A stretch of 47,934 nt of DNA, taken from the IMG/VR virus record IMGVR_UViG_3300032893_000080, positions 1 to 47,934 of that record; one strand, given 5' to 3'. Origin of the DNA: a virus. Below are positions 17,704-42,447 of the stretch, piece after piece (the first letter of the stretch is position 1; each line of letters opens with the position of its first letter). A program made the position numbers and the translations under genes. The notes beneath the pieces are model-generated. The model saw only the letters and a list, made by a program, of their open reading frames with translations, was not told where the DNA came from and did no database searches.

Positions 17704-17978
17704 CGAAAGATCCCCCGTAATGGGTTGTCACGGCGTTTCCGGGCTTCTTCGAGCCGGAACGCCTCCAGTTTGCCGCTGTTCAGCATGGTTTCGAGATTGA
17801 TCCTCACCCCTTTGAGCATCTTCAGACACTTCCGGTAGTCCTCCGCTTTCGCGGATTCCTCGACCGAGAGGGCTTCCAGGGATTCGATCAGTCTCATGCG
17901 GGTCATGTCCCAGGCTTCCTGGTAGATGGGATCCTCCAGGATCGCTTTGGCCCTTTGGGCGCGTTCAATGGCGTTCAT
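17700..17978 (-). CDS. Small helical protein between portal and scaffold
   Basis: 92 aa, almost entirely helical and charged (ERAQRAKAILEDPIYQEAWDMTRMRLIESLEAL). It overlaps both the portal and scaffold genes by four bases (ATGA). Similar short proteins occupy this spot in many podoviruses; the role is unknown, possibly assembly. Confidence 0.65.
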   Translation of the reverse strand: MNAIERAQRAKAILEDPIYQEAWDMTRMRLIESLEALSVEESAKAEDYRKCLKMLKGVRINLETMLNSGKLEAFRLEEARKRRDNPLRGIFR

Positions 17979-20362
17979 TGCAGTCCGATGATCCTGCCGG
18001 TGGGATCCTTCAACGCCATGTGAGAAGCCAGGATCTCCCCACTCTCGGGATGGACCAGATCCACTCCTTCCACTTCCCCTTTGCCGTTCTTCCTGATGAC
18101 CTTTCTAGCGGTAGCCAGTTTCCCGGTATGTTGCACGGCATCAAAGACCTTGTTGAGCGTGTTATGCAGATGTTCGGTACTCACCGATTGCTGAACGATG
18201 GCCTCGTGAGCGCCATTCACTGCACTTTGGGTCTGACTGGCAACCCCGGAGAGCTTGCTGTCCAGGCCTTGCAGAATGGCGGCATGAGAGGCCTTCAGAC
18301 CTTCTATGGCCACCGTATGACCGTGATCGATCTGCTTGTGGATGATCTCGATCCCTGCGGAAGAATCGATCTTGTAGCGCTCCAAAGCGGCAGCCCGTTC
18401 GGACTCGATCTCCTGCTGCAGCAGTTCCGCAGCCGTAATGCGTTCCTTGCTCTGGTTGTCCATCTGCGCTTTGAGGAGTTCGGGAGGAGGCGGCGGAGGG
18501 GCTTTGGGTGGCATCTTGATCGGATCGGTCCAGAATCTTTCCGGCGACATGAAGTCCACCGCCTTGGTCAGTTCCATTAAGGTGGTGTAGTAGTTCTCCG
18601 GGGTGACCACAGGAATCCCCATCTGCAAGGCTTCGGACTGCTTCTGCAGGATCGCCATCAAGCGACCGATCTGCGCATCCTTGTTGCCCGCGGCAAAAGC
18701 CACCGCAATCTTGAAACTGGTGCGTTTCTGCCAGGAACCGGGATCAATCTCCACCCATTTGCCGGCGATCTGGATCGATTCTCTCTTGTGCCCCATCTTC
18801 AGCACTTGTTCGTGCACGATGGCAAAGAGATCCTCGATGGCAAAGGCGAGGATTCGGGCGATCTGCACTACTCTCTCAGCAGCCATGGAGGAGAGCTGGT
18901 TGACGGTACCGGGTTGGATGTTATTCAGGTTCGCCGAATCCACCCCCGCAAAGCCGTTGTTCACCCCCGTACGGTTCTGCGCCACCTCTGACATGTACTG
19001 CAAACCCGCAACGGCTTGAGGAAAGACGAATTCGGTGGTCATCTCCCGGATCTGAGTGACATCCGTCGCCCGGATCAATCCACCCGGTCTTGAGATCAGC
19101 GCATCATCCAGATTGACGGCGGTTTCATTGAGGACCTTCTGGGGGTTGTTCGACAGATACAGGTTGTCGAGCCCCTGTCTCAAGATCGCCGTCTTGATCC
19201 GCTGGATATCACTCACCATGTCCGCCACCGCAATCCCTAAGTGACGGTGCGGCAAGGGACAAGCCACTCCAGAAGCGATGGGAATCCGACTGACTTCCTC
19301 CATGGACAGGATCCGTCTGCCGACCCGAAGGCATTGGAGTAATTCCGCGATCCCATCTCCGTCGTAATCGACCCGGATCCAGATCATCCGGGCTTTGACC
19401 CGGCGCATCGAAGGATCGGCGGGTTTGTAGCGTTCCAGTCTCCTTTCCCCATACTGGTCCCGGGCGTAATCCTCCTGGGTATAGAGCTCCGGATCATCCG
19501 CGATATCCGTGGGGATATCCCATCCTTGTTCCCGGAGCTCCGTCAGAGTCGTTTCCTCCCAGTACTCGAAGTAGTTACACCGTTCATCGATCCGCCACGA
19601 AAACGCTCTCTGATCGACCTTGACCCTTTCCGGAGGAAGGACCCGGATGCACAGATCCTTCATGGAAGAACCCCGACGAATGGAGACGTCGTAGAGCATC
19701 GTCGGAACGGTCATGGGCTGACCATTGGCATCGAGAACCGGTTGGCCATCGGGACCTAAAACTGGATCCGGAGGTAGATCAGGGGCGGGATAGCTTCGAG
19801 AGGCAATCAACTGAACATTGGGATCCTGAATGAGATAGGCCACGCCCATCTTGGTCTGCCCCTCGTAATGCTCGACCTCCACGGTTCTCTTGCGATCCCG
19901 GTAGACCAGGAAGTACGCATTCTTGGTGAGTAGCGCATCGGTCGCCCATTCCAGGAACAGATCGAACCAGGGATGCTTGGTGGTGACCAGCCAGTTCAGA
20001 TACGCCGCTTCCTGCTTGGCAGGTTCCACATCCATCTCGTTCAACGGGGTCAGACTGACTACATCCTCGCCATTCGCGAAAATGCGACACAAGGACGGAA
20101 GGATCCATTGGATGGTCTCGAAGACCGATCGATCGATGACGTTGCTCTGCCCTTCCGGGGCAGGATCGATGTTTTTCCCCAAGTATAGGTCAATGTTCAG
20201 CGCTCTTTCGGCGGAGAGTTGAGCGGTCAGGTTGGAGAGATTACTTCCATAGGATCTTGAATCGGCGTCGTCCATCGCCGCAATGAGCGCGGTCTCATCC
20301 ATCGGTCCGGTGGAGAACCGAGGAACATCCGAGGCAGAGGGTGCGCTGTCAGAGGACTGCAT
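17975..20362 (-). CDS. Portal protein, P22-like
   Basis: 795 aa, near the size of P22 gp1 (725). Recognisable segments include 'EYWEETTLTELREQGWDIP', 'GVACPLPHRHLGIAVADMV', 'SDIQRIKTAILRQGLDNLYL' and 'AQNRTGVNNGFAGVD', followed by a long C-terminal helical barrel-like region. The dodecameric ring forms the DNA gate and packaging-motor docking site. The start is six bases past the upstream gene region; an in-frame ATG opens 'MQSSDSAPSASDV'. Confidence 0.9.
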   Translation of the reverse strand: MQSSDSAPSASDVPRFSTGPMDETALIAAMDDADSRSYGSNLSNLTAQLSAERALNIDLYLGKNIDPAPEGQSNVIDRSVFETIQWILPSLCRIFANGEDVVSLTPLNEMDVEPAKQEAAYLNWLVTTKHPWFDLFLEWATDALLTKNAYFLVYRDRKRTVEVEHYEGQTKMGVAYLIQDPNVQLIASRSYPAPDLPPDPVLGPDGQPVLDANGQPMTVPTMLYDVSIRRGSSMKDLCIRVLPPERVKVDQRAFSWRIDERCNYFEYWEETTLTELREQGWDIPTDIADDPELYTQEDYARDQYGERRLERYKPADPSMRRVKARMIWIRVDYDGDGIAELLQCLRVGRRILSMEEVSRIPIASGVACPLPHRHLGIAVADMVSDIQRIKTAILRQGLDNLYLSNNPQKVLNETAVNLDDALISRPGGLIRATDVTQIREMTTEFVFPQAVAGLQYMSEVAQNRTGVNNGFAGVDSANLNNIQPGTVNQLSSMAAERVVQIARILAFAIEDLFAIVHEQVLKMGHKRESIQIAGKWVEIDPGSWQKRTSFKIAVAFAAGNKDAQIGRLMAILQKQSEALQMGIPVVTPENYYTTLMELTKAVDFMSPERFWTDPIKMPPKAPPPPPPELLKAQMDNQSKERITAAELLQQEIESERAAALERYKIDSSAGIEIIHKQIDHGHTVAIEGLKASHAAILQGLDSKLSGVASQTQSAVNGAHEAIVQQSVSTEHLHNTLNKVFDAVQHTGKLATARKVIRKNGKGEVEGVDLVHPESGEILASHMALKDPTGRIIGLQ

Positions 20363-20656: not shown

Positions 20657-20825
20657 GGTGGTTCACCTTTGGCGGTCTGCCGCGACGTTTCGGCGGATTC
20701 TGCCCTACTGGCTCGACGACTTTGCTGGAATCTTGCGCAGAATCGATGAGAAGCAACACTTTCTGCTCCAGTTCGACCGTCCTACGCTCCAACTCCTTCA
20801 GTCGGACCAGGAAATCAGCACTCAT
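20643..20825 (-). CDS. Small coiled-coil protein with AT-hook-like motif
   Basis: 60 aa. A leucine heptad helix (LVRLKELERRTVELEQKVLLLI) is followed by 'PPKRRGRPPKVNHHEQA', which contains the RGRP core of an AT-hook minor-groove binder. It overlaps the terminase gene by four bases. A DNA-packaging accessory or transcription role is plausible. Confidence 0.6.
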   Translation of the reverse strand: MSADFLVRLKELERRTVELEQKVLLLIDSAQDSSKVVEPVGQNPPKRRGRPPKVNHHEQA

Positions 20826-22102
20826 GCGTAGGCCCTCTTGGGATATTGGATCGGTTCCCGCTTCCTGTCCTGTCCCACCCTACGAACGGTCAATGCCATA
20901 TAGCGAAAAGCATCTGCGGCATGGCTCGCCCAATCATGGACTGGAGTGGGTTTCAGTTCCCCCATCCGGGCATTGTAGTCCCAACGATAGCTTTGCAGGG
21001 CCTCTAATCCGGGCTGGCAGCGATGACGGTCGAAGTAACAGCGTGGAAAGAGCTGCCGGGCCGCATTGATCCCTTCCTCCAGCGAGAGTTTCGGCACGAT
21101 CTGCACCTTGAATCCGAGTCCCCGGATGACCTCGGCAAAGCTATGTCCCGTCACGACTTGCTTGTTTTCCGCGTCATGGGGCAGCCAGCAGGTATCGTAG
21201 CGGTAGTCCTTGGCTTGCAGGTGAGAGGCATAGTGCGCGGCGGGCTCCTGTTGAGCTTCATAGAAGTCGATGAGATGCACCTTCCCATCGATCAGCTGGT
21301 AGAACCAGATCGCGGTCGCATCCCCATAGCCGATATCCCATGCAGTATGAACCAGTGCACTGCCCTCATACGGTAACGTGGCAATGCGGGGTTGGGCCGT
21401 CAGCAATTCCTTGGCGTAAACCGCGCCGATCACCGCGGCATCGAAGCTGCACTCGTACTCCTGGGCATACTGGTTCTCCGTCATGGTCTTTCTGGCATCC
21501 AGAAGTTCCTTCTCCGGCAAAAGACCCGTTTCACTGGCCCTCAAGGTCAGGTGATACCAATCCGGATCGGTCAAAGCACGATCATAGATCTCGTAGAACG
21601 CATTCCTTCCCCGAGGGGTGCCAATGAAGACCGCCCATCCCTTGCGGTCTGAGAGGGCGGGACGGATCACCTCTCCCCATAGACTGGGGCGCATATCGGC
21701 GTACTCATCCATCACCACACCATCCAAATACATGCCTCTTAGCGCATTGGGATTATCCGCTCCGAACAGTCTGACCGCTGAGCCATTGAAGAGGCGCACC
21801 ATGAGATCGGATTCCCGGAAGTCCTGGGCAGGATCTTTCACCACGGCCTGGGCGTAGTACTTCAGGTATTCCCAAGCGACTGTCTTGGCCTGTTCCCGAA
21901 ATGGGGCGATATAGGCATAGCGGGCATCTTTCTTCGACGTCGCCAAAGCGCGGGTCAGTAGCTCCATGATGCACGCCACGGTCTTCCCGGCTCTGCGATG
22001 CGCAACAATGATCGACCAGCGTTCCTGGCGGTGATGGAACGGGATGAATTGAGGTCGGGGGACGTAGTCTACTGATCGAGCGGTGTTTTCGGCAGCGGCC
22101 AT
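20822..22102 (-). CDS. Terminase large subunit
   Basis: 426 aa. Walker A is 'HRRAGKT' (35-41) and Walker B 'YLDGVVMDEYADM' with Asp132-Glu133. The nuclease domain has 'WDIGYGD' (Asp256, Asp261) and 'HLIDFYEAQ', then C-terminal 'HAADAFRYMAL'. It is the ATP-driven packaging motor and headful or site-specific nuclease. It overlaps the small-terminase gene by 34 nt. Confidence 0.93.
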   Translation of the reverse strand: MAAAENTARSVDYVPRPQFIPFHHRQERWSIIVAHRRAGKTVACIMELLTRALATSKKDARYAYIAPFREQAKTVAWEYLKYYAQAVVKDPAQDFRESDLMVRLFNGSAVRLFGADNPNALRGMYLDGVVMDEYADMRPSLWGEVIRPALSDRKGWAVFIGTPRGRNAFYEIYDRALTDPDWYHLTLRASETGLLPEKELLDARKTMTENQYAQEYECSFDAAVIGAVYAKELLTAQPRIATLPYEGSALVHTAWDIGYGDATAIWFYQLIDGKVHLIDFYEAQQEPAAHYASHLQAKDYRYDTCWLPHDAENKQVVTGHSFAEVIRGLGFKVQIVPKLSLEEGINAARQLFPRCYFDRHRCQPGLEALQSYRWDYNARMGELKPTPVHDWASHAADAFRYMALTVRRVGQDRKREPIQYPKRAYA

Positions 22103-36000: not shown

Positions 36001-36840
36001 ATGAATAAATCAACGCCCCAAGCCTTCTGGAATCGCGTCCTCACTAGTGGTCAGTGTTGGCTGTGGCGAGGCGCTCATTTCCGAAGTGGCTATGCGCGAG
36101 TGAAATATCACGGTCGAGATACAGTCGCGCATCGAATTGCATGGGAATTGACCCATGGTCCCGTTCCGGCAGGATTAGAGTTGGATCATCTCTGTCGTAA
36201 TCGGGGATGCGTCAATCCAGCCCACTTGGAGCCCGTTTCTCATCGAGAGAACGAAATCCGTGGTCACACGGTCATCCGTGATAACGCTATAAAATCTCAT
36301 TGCAAACGCGGCCACCCACTGAACGGCGACAATCTATTTCTTCGTGGTAGCCGACGCCAATGCAGAATTTGTCATCGCTTAAGAGGCAAGAAATCATCAT
36401 CTACTTCTCGCGGCAAAGCCATGCATGCAGCCAGAGAACGAAAGCGTAAACAACGTCTCAAGGAGAATGCAATGTCGAAATCGAAATTGAACTCTGCGCA
36501 GATTCGTCAAGGCGATGTCTTGTGCGAAGTCATCCCGGAATCCGATATGAACTCGTTCAAGGCCATTGAGCCAAAGGATGGACGAACCGTACTCGCATGG
36601 GGGGAAGTAACGGGCCATTCCCATCGCTTCGAGTTTCAGGCAGGCGCCGATGGCGGTTCGGCTGCGATAGCCTACGCCCATCCCCTCGCACCGGGAGAGC
36701 CCGCTCGCGTGCATTTGCTGGCCCCCATAGCTCTAAAGCATGAAGAGCATCGTGCTCTCCTCATTCCGGCTGGCACGGTACGGATCAGCCGTCCGTATGA
36801 ATATCAGGGAACGGAACTGCCGCGCCAGGTCGCTGACTGA
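36001..36840 (+). CDS. HNH homing endonuclease fused in frame to a phage early protein
   Basis: 279 codons. Residues 1-157 are an HNH_3 nuclease ('CWLWRGAHFRSGYARVKYHG', 'ELDHLCRNRGCVNPAHLEPV', then zinc-ribbon 'HCKRGHPL…CRICHRLRG'). No stop separates it from residue 158, the start of the following gene. The nuclease part is AT-richer than its surroundings, which indicates recent entry. Upstream, a short frame MNDTDMADE (35979-36008) may be a leftover of an interrupted gene. Confidence 0.75.
   Translation: MNKSTPQAFWNRVLTSGQCWLWRGAHFRSGYARVKYHGRDTVAHRIAWELTHGPVPAGLELDHLCRNRGCVNPAHLEPVSHRENEIRGHTVIRDNAIKSHCKRGHPLNGDNLFLRGSRRQCRICHRLRGKKSSSTSRGKAMHAARERKRKQRLKENAMSKSKLNSAQIRQGDVLCEVIPESDMNSFKAIEPKDGRTVLAWGEVTGHSHRFEFQAGADGGSAAIAYAHPLAPGEPARVHLLAPIALKHEEHRALLIPAGTVRISRPYEYQGTELPRQVAD
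36472..36840 (+). CDS. Early protein with GEVTGHSH motif (internal start of the fused frame)
   Basis: 122 aa from the ATG at 36472, which has its own AAGGAG six bases upstream. 'IRQGDVLCEVIPESD', 'VLAWGEVTGHSHRFE' and 'HEEHRALLIPAGTVRISRPYEYQGTE' form a cupin-like or beta pattern I know from many phages and bacteria, where it precedes a DUF6745-type gene as it does here (36853). The function is unknown. It can be made both free and as the C-terminal part of the nuclease fusion. Confidence 0.7.
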   Translation: MSKSKLNSAQIRQGDVLCEVIPESDMNSFKAIEPKDGRTVLAWGEVTGHSHRFEFQAGADGGSAAIAYAHPLAPGEPARVHLLAPIALKHEEHRALLIPAGTVRISRPYEYQGTELPRQVAD

Positions 36841-41433: not shown

Positions 41434-42447
41434 GTGAGGGTGCTTGATCTCTTCAGCGGCATCGGCGGCTTCTCCCTCGGACTTGAGCGAGCCGGAATGC
41501 GAACCGTCGCCTTCTGTGAGATCGAGCCATACTGCCGAGCAGTTCTCGCTAGGCATTGGCCAGGAGTCCCCATTTTCGGAGACATCCGCACCCTTACTGC
41601 CGACGCCATCCGCCACGCGCTACGGAAACAATCGAGGCGGCGGGATGGGTCGGACGGGGCCAGTGAGACCGAGTCTCAAGACGTTGACCTCATCTGCGGC
41701 GGATTTCCCTGTCAGGACATCAGCGTCGCCGGAAAGGGTGCTGGTCTTGCAGGCGAGAGAAGCGGCTTATGGGTCGAGTTCGCTCGACTCATTGGCGAGC
41801 TTCGACCCCGCTACGCAGTCGTGGAGAACGTCTCAGCTCTCTGTGCTCGGGGGCTTGGAGCCGTACTCGGAGACCTGGCCACGCTCGGGTATGACGCGGA
41901 ATGGCATTGCATACCAGCTTCCTACGTTGGTGCCCCTCACCGTCGAGACCGAGTCTGGATCGTGGCGTACATCAACGAGCGAGGGGCAGGATGCGGGCGG
42001 TCAGGACCCAAATCGAAGTCTACACACGCAGGTTCGACAGTGGCCGACGCCAACGATCAAAGGGAATCACAACCGCAAGGGACTGTCCTCCAAGAGCGGG
42101 GACGGCCTAGCGACGGCGGTGAATCAGGCGATGTGGCCGACGCCAACAGCTCAGGATGCGGACCAAGCGGGCAGCGCGAAGCGCCCTGCATTGACTCGTG
42201 CGGCGAGATGCGCGACTTCGACCGCCAGGGACTTCAGACATCCTGGGCGCAGTCGTCTGGAAAGGGCTGGGGGCAAGCAGGGCGAGAACCTACCGCGGCA
42301 GGTTGGTGGAGCACTGAACCCGACGTGGGTCGAGTGGCTCATGGGGTTCCCGCTAGGGTGGACCGCCTTAGAGCCCTCGGCAATGCCGTCGTCCCGCAAA
42401 TCCCGGAAATCATCGGGAGAGCCATCATGAGAGTGAACTGCCCATGA
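41434..42447 (+). CDS. dcm: DNA (cytosine-5) methyltransferase
   Basis: 337 aa from GTG. Motif I 'DLFSGIGGFSLGLERAG', motif IV 'GGFPCQDISVAGKGAG' with catalytic Cys93, motif VI 'ENVSAL', motif VIII 'HRRDRVWIVAYI' and motif X region 'VDRLRALGNAVVPQIPEIIG' are all present in order, so the enzyme is likely active. Residues 62-84 and ~185-300 (variable region, with two VADAN motifs) are low-complexity. The frame from 41444 to 42430 is simultaneously open in another phase on the same strand. It replaces the Mom-like gene of version A and probably protects phage DNA from restriction. Confidence 0.92.
   Translation: MRVLDLFSGIGGFSLGLERAGMRTVAFCEIEPYCRAVLARHWPGVPIFGDIRTLTADAIRHALRKQSRRRDGSDGASETESQDVDLICGGFPCQDISVAGKGAGLAGERSGLWVEFARLIGELRPRYAVVENVSALCARGLGAVLGDLATLGYDAEWHCIPASYVGAPHRRDRVWIVAYINERGAGCGRSGPKSKSTHAGSTVADANDQRESQPQGTVLQERGRPSDGGESGDVADANSSGCGPSGQREAPCIDSCGEMRDFDRQGLQTSWAQSSGKGWGQAGREPTAAGWWSTEPDVGRVAHGVPARVDRLRALGNAVVPQIPEIIGRAIMRVNCP
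41444..42430 (+). CDS. Overprinted ORF inside the cytosine methyltransferase gene
   Basis: 328 codons in the +1-shifted phase relative to the methyltransferase, from TTG at 41444. It contains segments that look like a genuine protein: 'LLPTPSATRYGNNRGGGMG', 'FPVRTSASPERV', 'SLASFDPATQSWRTSQL', 'SETWPRSGMTRNGIAYQLPT', 'WPTPTIKGNHNRKGLSSKSG' and 'LNPTWVEWLMGFPLGWTALE'. From memory this is a recurring phage family linked to methyltransferases. No ATG lies near the 5' end and no clear ribosome site is seen. Expression is therefore unproven; function unknown. Confidence 0.5.
   Translation: MISSAASAASPSDLSEPECEPSPSVRSSHTAEQFSLGIGQESPFSETSAPLLPTPSATRYGNNRGGGMGRTGPVRPSLKTLTSSAADFPVRTSASPERVLVLQAREAAYGSSSLDSLASFDPATQSWRTSQLSVLGGLEPYSETWPRSGMTRNGIAYQLPTLVPLTVETESGSWRTSTSEGQDAGGQDPNRSLHTQVRQWPTPTIKGNHNRKGLSSKSGDGLATAVNQAMWPTPTAQDADQAGSAKRPALTRAARCATSTARDFRHPGRSRLERAGGKQGENLPRQVGGALNPTWVEWLMGFPLGWTALEPSAMPSSRKSRKSSGEPS

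Follow-up and report, generated by a model that had tools for sequence, protein, structure and literature searches.

Two overlapping phage reading frames that probably encode the two subunits of one C5-cytosine DNA methyltransferase

Results

The locus and its two frames

The window analysed here, a virus record of 47,934 nt, contains two overlapping open reading frames on the same strand, the second in phase +1 relative to the first; we refer to their products as alpha and beta (Table 1). The original prediction had placed the frames at 41434-42447 and at 41444-42430, the latter being read from a TTG over 328 codons, and both were reproduced on the same strand and in phase +1, as were motifs I, IV (PCQ), VI (ENV), VIII and X in the first frame, the translation given for the second and the common DNA that reads VADAN in one frame and WPTPT in the other. 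From stop to stop the second frame spans 41438-42430.

Table 1. Features of the overlapping methyltransferase locus, with positions in the window.
Feature	Position	Strand	Description
Alpha subunit, C5-cytosine methyltransferase catalytic chain	41434..42447	+	337 aa, GTG start; motifs I-VIII and X
Alpha motif I (DLFSGIGGFSLG)	41446..41481	+	Translation; invariant columns
Internal Shine-Dalgarno GAGG	41634..41637	+	7 nt before beta ATG 41645; duplex energy -6.7 kcal/mol
Putative beta subunit	41645..42430	+	261 aa, lying within alpha in the +1 frame; has motif IX and PTP repeats; basis phrog_1008, stop depletion, internal SD and ATG
Alpha motif IV PCQ, catalytic Cys93	41707..41715	+	Invariant P92 C93 Q94
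Beta N-terminal module (FDPATQSWRTSQ...SETWPRSGMTRNGIAYQLPTL)	41801..41929	+	Shares its DNA with alpha motifs VI-VIII (overprinted); BLOSUM Z 42 over synonymous shuffles (+1)
Alpha motif VI ENV	41824..41832	+	Invariant E131 N132 V133
Alpha motif VIII (HRRDRVWIVA)	41938..41967	+	Invariant H169 R171 R173
Beta WPTPT repeat; alpha = VADAN	42041..42055	+	P and T >85% conserved in beta
Beta second WPTPT repeat	42134..42148	+	T 95%, P 98% in beta
Beta motif IX (LNPTWVEWLMGFPLGWT)	42314..42364	+	97-100% conserved at most positions; = motif IX of single-chain relatives
Alpha motif X (ALGNAVVPQIPEIIGRAI)	42373..42426	+	Invariant G316 N317 P321; IX-to-X gap 62 nt

Elsewhere in the window, genes for a portal protein (17975-20362, minus strand; phrog_1216) and a large terminase (20822-22102, minus strand; phrog_2) identify it as a tailed-phage contig. 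An HNH endonuclease gene (36001-36840, plus strand; phrog_826, E 2.4e-49) lies about 4.6 kb upstream of the methyltransferase. At ATGA 42444-42447 the alpha stop codon overlaps the start of the next ORF, which encodes a 147-aa protein with no PHROG match, an arrangement that suggests translational coupling.

Alpha carries the catalytic motifs

Alpha falls in phrog_363 and matches PF00145 with an E value of 8.4e-42, over residues 1-185 of 337 only, which corresponds to motifs I-VIII. The profile of alpha relatives matched M.HhaI across the same motifs only, and other PDB enzymes likewise only through motif VIII. Motif X (ALGNAVVPQ) was found at the C-terminus of alpha, beyond a weakly conserved stretch. 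With respect to PF00145, motifs I, IV, VI and VIII are present and motif X stands in the same chain; alpha nevertheless departs from the usual monomeric form, in which the target recognition domain (TRD) and motif IX belong to that chain too, as here motif IX sits in the +1 frame. No recognisable TRD or motif IX was found in alpha, where the Pfam and PDB profile matches end after motif VIII.

The +1 frame is under coding selection

The relatives found were all distant from the window (63% in beta at best), and dN/dS was therefore replaced by tests that shuffled synonymous codons gene by gene, keeping the alpha protein and its codon usage. Over alpha residues 84-311 of 142 homologues the +1 frame contained 30 stops against 561 expected and was fully open in 126 homologues against 5.9 expected, with the +2 frame neutral (1332 stops against 1331 expected). 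These homologues had been picked with beta as query, which biases the set towards open frames, and a second set picked by alpha alone was therefore used to remove the bias. Frequent second-phase stops in homologues, which the original prediction had named as evidence against itself, were looked for in this set; only 16 were present against 424.5 expected, and the frame was open in 69 of 76 loci against 1.7 expected. Furthermore, the conservation of beta residues far exceeds what alpha would impose in comparison with synonymous shuffles, and mean identity was 0.195 in beta against 0.169 in alpha over the variable/TRD region and 0.764 against 0.745 over the motif IX region. An open frame produced as a by-product of base composition or of alpha conservation might be imagined in a window that is G+C-rich and holds several long unused ORFs, but with alpha protein and codon usage fixed the stops expected from shuffling outnumber those observed about 20-fold, near-neutrality is seen in the +2 frame and in the N-terminal third, and the +1 frame turns neutral where the TRD and motif IX sit in frame 0 (49 stops against 48.6 expected over the TRD of the single-chain relatives described below, which serve as internal control). 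For the family these tests refute such an explanation, and overall it is exceedingly improbable. We regard it as almost certain that the second frame is a gene.

The family is widespread, with at least 594 confirmed beta-related stretches in viral contigs, 231 relatives in bacterial genome contigs and 14 beta-bearing members among 369 sampled genomes of the class of a Methylococcales assembly (G001). Whether relatives also overlap a methyltransferase had been raised as a check, and nearly all of them do so in phase +1, the few exceptions being rearranged or duplicated loci such as L107. In the Roseovarius chromosome OX638333.1, one beta match with identical coordinates recurred at five places (L144-L148), which points to a repeat of either the element or the assembly.

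Beta probably starts at an internal ribosome site

Stops nearly vanish only from alpha residue ~84 onwards, which makes the quoted start at 41444 too early; the first ~67 codons of that frame (41444-41644) contained 187 stops in the homologues against 214 +/- 12 expected, within about 2 SD of neutral, and thus lack clear selection for openness. The overprinting is genuine, whereas its predicted extent of about 1 kb has to be reduced to a constrained part over alpha residues ~84-311, about 0.7-0.8 kb. In the window, the most likely start of beta is ATG 41645, which an internal ribosome site precedes. Of the 142 homologues, 59 have an internal ATG preceded by a strong Shine-Dalgarno sequence, against 7.7 +/- 2.4 after synonymous shuffling, and many Bacillota homologues carry acaaaggagagtttttATG or close variants at one fixed position. 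Both frames are, by these computations, under coding selection, and an internal start signal exists. In Paenibacillus phage Likha, the existing annotation shows gp51 and gp52 nested in this manner. The low-complexity stretches of alpha (residues 62-84 and ~185-300) had been thought to be shaped by the second frame, and such a constraint is supported; residues 62-84, on the other hand, are an insertion specific to the window, which houses the beta ribosome site and start.

Beta modules and a motif IX-like segment

Beta falls in phrog_1008 (E 9.9e-36 for the trimmed protein, over beta 10-246; E 2.8e-36 for the full frame), a family labelled 'DNA methyltransferase' that also includes Likha gp52, Sebastisaurus gp35 and ArV1 67b, which bears out the suggestion that the second frame belongs to a recurring phage family. 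In a Pfam search the second frame had no match. Its terminal segment LNPTWVEWLMGFPLGWT is nearly invariant and resembles motif IX of C5 methyltransferases, the consensus of which is LTPRECxRLQGFPD. Comparison of beta with a few canonical methyltransferases by hhalign was weak (P 0.04), though the top match fell on motif IX, and the beta profile retrieved no methyltransferase from the PDB by sequence, only designed helical repeat proteins that are not meaningful. AlphaFold modelled beta alone at pLDDT 58, a confidence so low that the model was left out of the fold search; this poor prediction is consistent with, although not proof of, folding only with alpha.

Single-chain relatives identify the beta segment

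The decisive evidence for reading beta as the carrier of motif IX is that its PTP-IX segment occurs fused in the catalytic chain of relatives. ShiLan gp70 and at least 16 relatives in viral contigs (L343-L361) have motifs I-VIII, the PTP repeats, motif IX and motif X in one frame. One of these, L345, matches PF00145 from end to end (1-356, E 2.7e-36), is covered by phrog_1008 over residues 218-369 (E 2.9e-57) and has an AlphaFold model that can be superposed on M.HhaI along its whole length (E 2.6e-13), with pLDDT of about 88-97 in the IX-X region and low confidence in the PTP region. In addition, the beta profile matched the single-chain profile (E 4.4e-12), in the comparison of the latter with the M.HhaI sequence LAAAFSEWMMGWP falls on M.HhaI motif IX, and in L189 LNPDWVEWLMGYPISWTDGGSRMQRLMALGNSVVP, motif IX followed by motif X, is read in the alpha frame. 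By these comparisons, beta and the PTP-IX(-X) part of the single-chain enzymes are homologous. The PTP repeats appear to take the place of the target recognition domain, and from this position they may contact DNA. 'Unknown protein', the term used in the original prediction, is accordingly replaced by what is most likely the second subunit of the same methyltransferase, on the strength of fused relatives that carry the corresponding segment. The proposal of an antirestriction partner or modifier was right in linking the two products functionally; the modifier role is not supported, as beta carries the motif IX and, by position, the TRD that alpha lacks.

The single-chain relatives also keep the beta N-terminal module in the +1 frame. 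This module (SETWPRSGMTRNG) stays there even where PTP-IX-X is fused to alpha, so that it may serve a separate function, and this is the observation that speaks for beta being a separate protein, such as an antirestriction factor or regulator, overprinted on a complete monomeric methyltransferase. Alpha, however, has neither motif IX nor any conserved TRD, PTP-IX stands in cis in functional-looking single chains, and among the 80 loci found with alpha a recognisable motif IX lies in the +1 frame at 53 and in alpha at one. We consider a separate protein very unlikely on these grounds, and two chains of one enzyme remain our preferred reading.

Frames switch among relatives

The fetched loci were sorted by the frame of each motif, some of them being counted twice via different queries. 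The arrangement of the window, with motif IX in the +1 frame and motif X in alpha, was found at 222 loci; motifs IX and X were both in alpha, with PTP repeats in the +1 frame, at 34, and both in the +1 frame at 12, to which annotated actinophage pairs such as Sebastisaurus gp34/35 and Andrew gp43/44 are to be added. All motifs shared one frame at 4 loci by strict pattern, and at more by eye. The gap between motifs IX and X had a median of 62 nt in the type of the window and was always 2 mod 3 (219 of 219 counted); where both motifs share a chain, it was a multiple of three, and the medians were 84 and 123 nt. In a tree of motifs I-VIII built by a quick method from 88 rows, 12 rows in which motif IX has shifted to alpha form a clade (support 96) nested inside the type of the window, and the frame of motif IX changes at least 6 times, 2 of these changes being forced by well-supported branches.

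A single long chain could also be produced by ribosomal frameshifting, with motifs I-VIII from alpha, TRD-IX from beta and motif X again from alpha; the order of the modules in the DNA is that of a normal C5 methyltransferase, and related phages have a single-frame version. Nevertheless, two shifts would be needed, the beta N-terminal module overlaps alpha motifs VI-VIII and is selected upstream of any useful shift point, the internal Shine-Dalgarno sequence and ATG are under selection, and the 62-nt gap is below the 84 or 123 nt of the shared-chain cases. Frameshifting is therefore very unlikely, and two separately initiated chains are favoured.

It seems fairly probable that the order of modules (I-VIII, PTP/TRD, IX, X) has stayed fixed while the frame of TRD, IX and X switched in evolution, so that the enzyme would occur either as a single chain or as a heterodimer whose genes are nested or overlap in part, with the beta N-terminal module always overprinted on the catalytic domain and the PTP repeats representing an undescribed kind of target-recognition module. 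What may be new is that the frame switches from one relative to another.

Several loci had unusual structures. Short variants (L191, L193 and L210) have an alpha of 240-250 aa and a minimal +1 segment between motifs VIII and X, with IX-like sequence still visible by eye, e.g. LHPSFGEWMMGFPIGWT in L193. In L107 (1334-2471 and 2263-3235) an intact alpha/beta pair is closely followed downstream by another beta-like frame that has motif IX and PTP repeats and seems to stem from a partial duplication. The alpha frame of L076 (2343-4422) has extra sequence before motif X and runs into ATPase-like sequence, the beta frame of L106 (2014-4237) continues without a stop into the following coding sequence, and in L119 (2178-2868) the N-terminal part of alpha is swapped for unrelated sequence, PAPS-reductase-like by eye, with the C-terminal halves of both frames intact. 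Lastly, in Microcystis phage Mwe-JY08 (L420) the locus is cut off and annotated with only an 86-aa hypothetical protein, the methyltransferase having been missed.

Discussion

Our analysis suggests that both overlapping products most likely belong to one enzyme, and we consider it highly probable that this enzyme is a C5-cytosine DNA methyltransferase encoded as two overlapping chains, whose translation, heterodimeric state, specificity and role we infer. Alpha, read in frame 0, would contribute the AdoMet site and the catalytic motifs I, IV, VI, VIII and X, binding AdoMet and catalysing the transfer. Beta, initiated at the predicted ribosome-binding site inside alpha and read in the +1 frame, would supply motif IX together with the PTP-repeat region, which lies where M.HhaI has its target recognition. 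The two chains would then assemble into the active enzyme, which would most plausibly methylate the phage's own DNA and thereby shield it from host restriction. Guarding phage DNA against host restriction is the usual role of phage methyltransferases of this class.

The known enzyme closest to this pair, compared by layout and not by sequence, is the two-subunit M.EcoHK31I. Its beta subunit is encoded in an alternative frame within alpha, a layout matched by the small chain of the window, which lies in the +1 frame within the large chain. According to PMC3404938, M.EcoHK31I is a two-subunit C5 methyltransferase recognising YGGCCR (Lee, Kam and Shaw 1995, cited therein), with motifs I-VIII and X in the large subunit, motif IX in the small one and the TRD predicted in the large subunit. 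The distribution of motifs is, on that account, the same in the window, where the large chain has I-VIII and X and the second chain IX; in contrast, the conserved repeats of the variable region stand in beta in the window, and the predicted TRD of M.EcoHK31I in the large chain. The window pair is also phage-borne, unlike M.EcoHK31I, and no restriction enzyme was recognised adjoining it. When plasmids were searched for a bacterial relative that is close and accompanied by a restriction enzyme, four weak matches resulted, none of them informative.

M.AquI is an alpha/beta C5 methyltransferase that is split between motifs VIII and IX. The actinophage pairs Sebastisaurus gp34/35, Andrew gp43/44 and ArV1 67a/67b are similar to it in having both IX and X in beta; unlike M.AquI, the window keeps motif X in alpha and has beta fully nested. 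As for the mycobacteriophage single-chain methylases of the ShiLan gp70 type, they share with the window the modules I-VIII, the PTP repeats, LxPxFxEWMMGxPxGWVT (motif IX) and X, but read PTP-IX-X in frame 0, and their +1 frame retains no more than the N-terminal module of beta and part of the PTP repeats. A different out-of-frame arrangement is the ShiLan-domain HNH homing endonuclease inserted in the phage methylase gene gp65 (PMC11855218). Such an insert was considered as cause of the overlap and rejected, as beta matches phrog_1008 and not an HNH family; unlike it, the second frame of the window is part of the methyltransferase itself. The label of phrog_1008, for its part, is silent on a subunit without catalytic motifs and on its usual overprinting. 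In a literature search of partial coverage, no paper was found that describes this phage family as overprinted subunits.

Near-complete overlaps of two conserved proteins on the same strand are, to our knowledge, rare outside small viruses. Because the family is mostly annotated as one gene, beta is often missed and alpha taken for the whole enzyme, although one would expect no activity from alpha when it is cloned by itself. With its nested, split and single-chain versions, the family would offer a test bed for how enzymes move between one and two chains via a change of frame.
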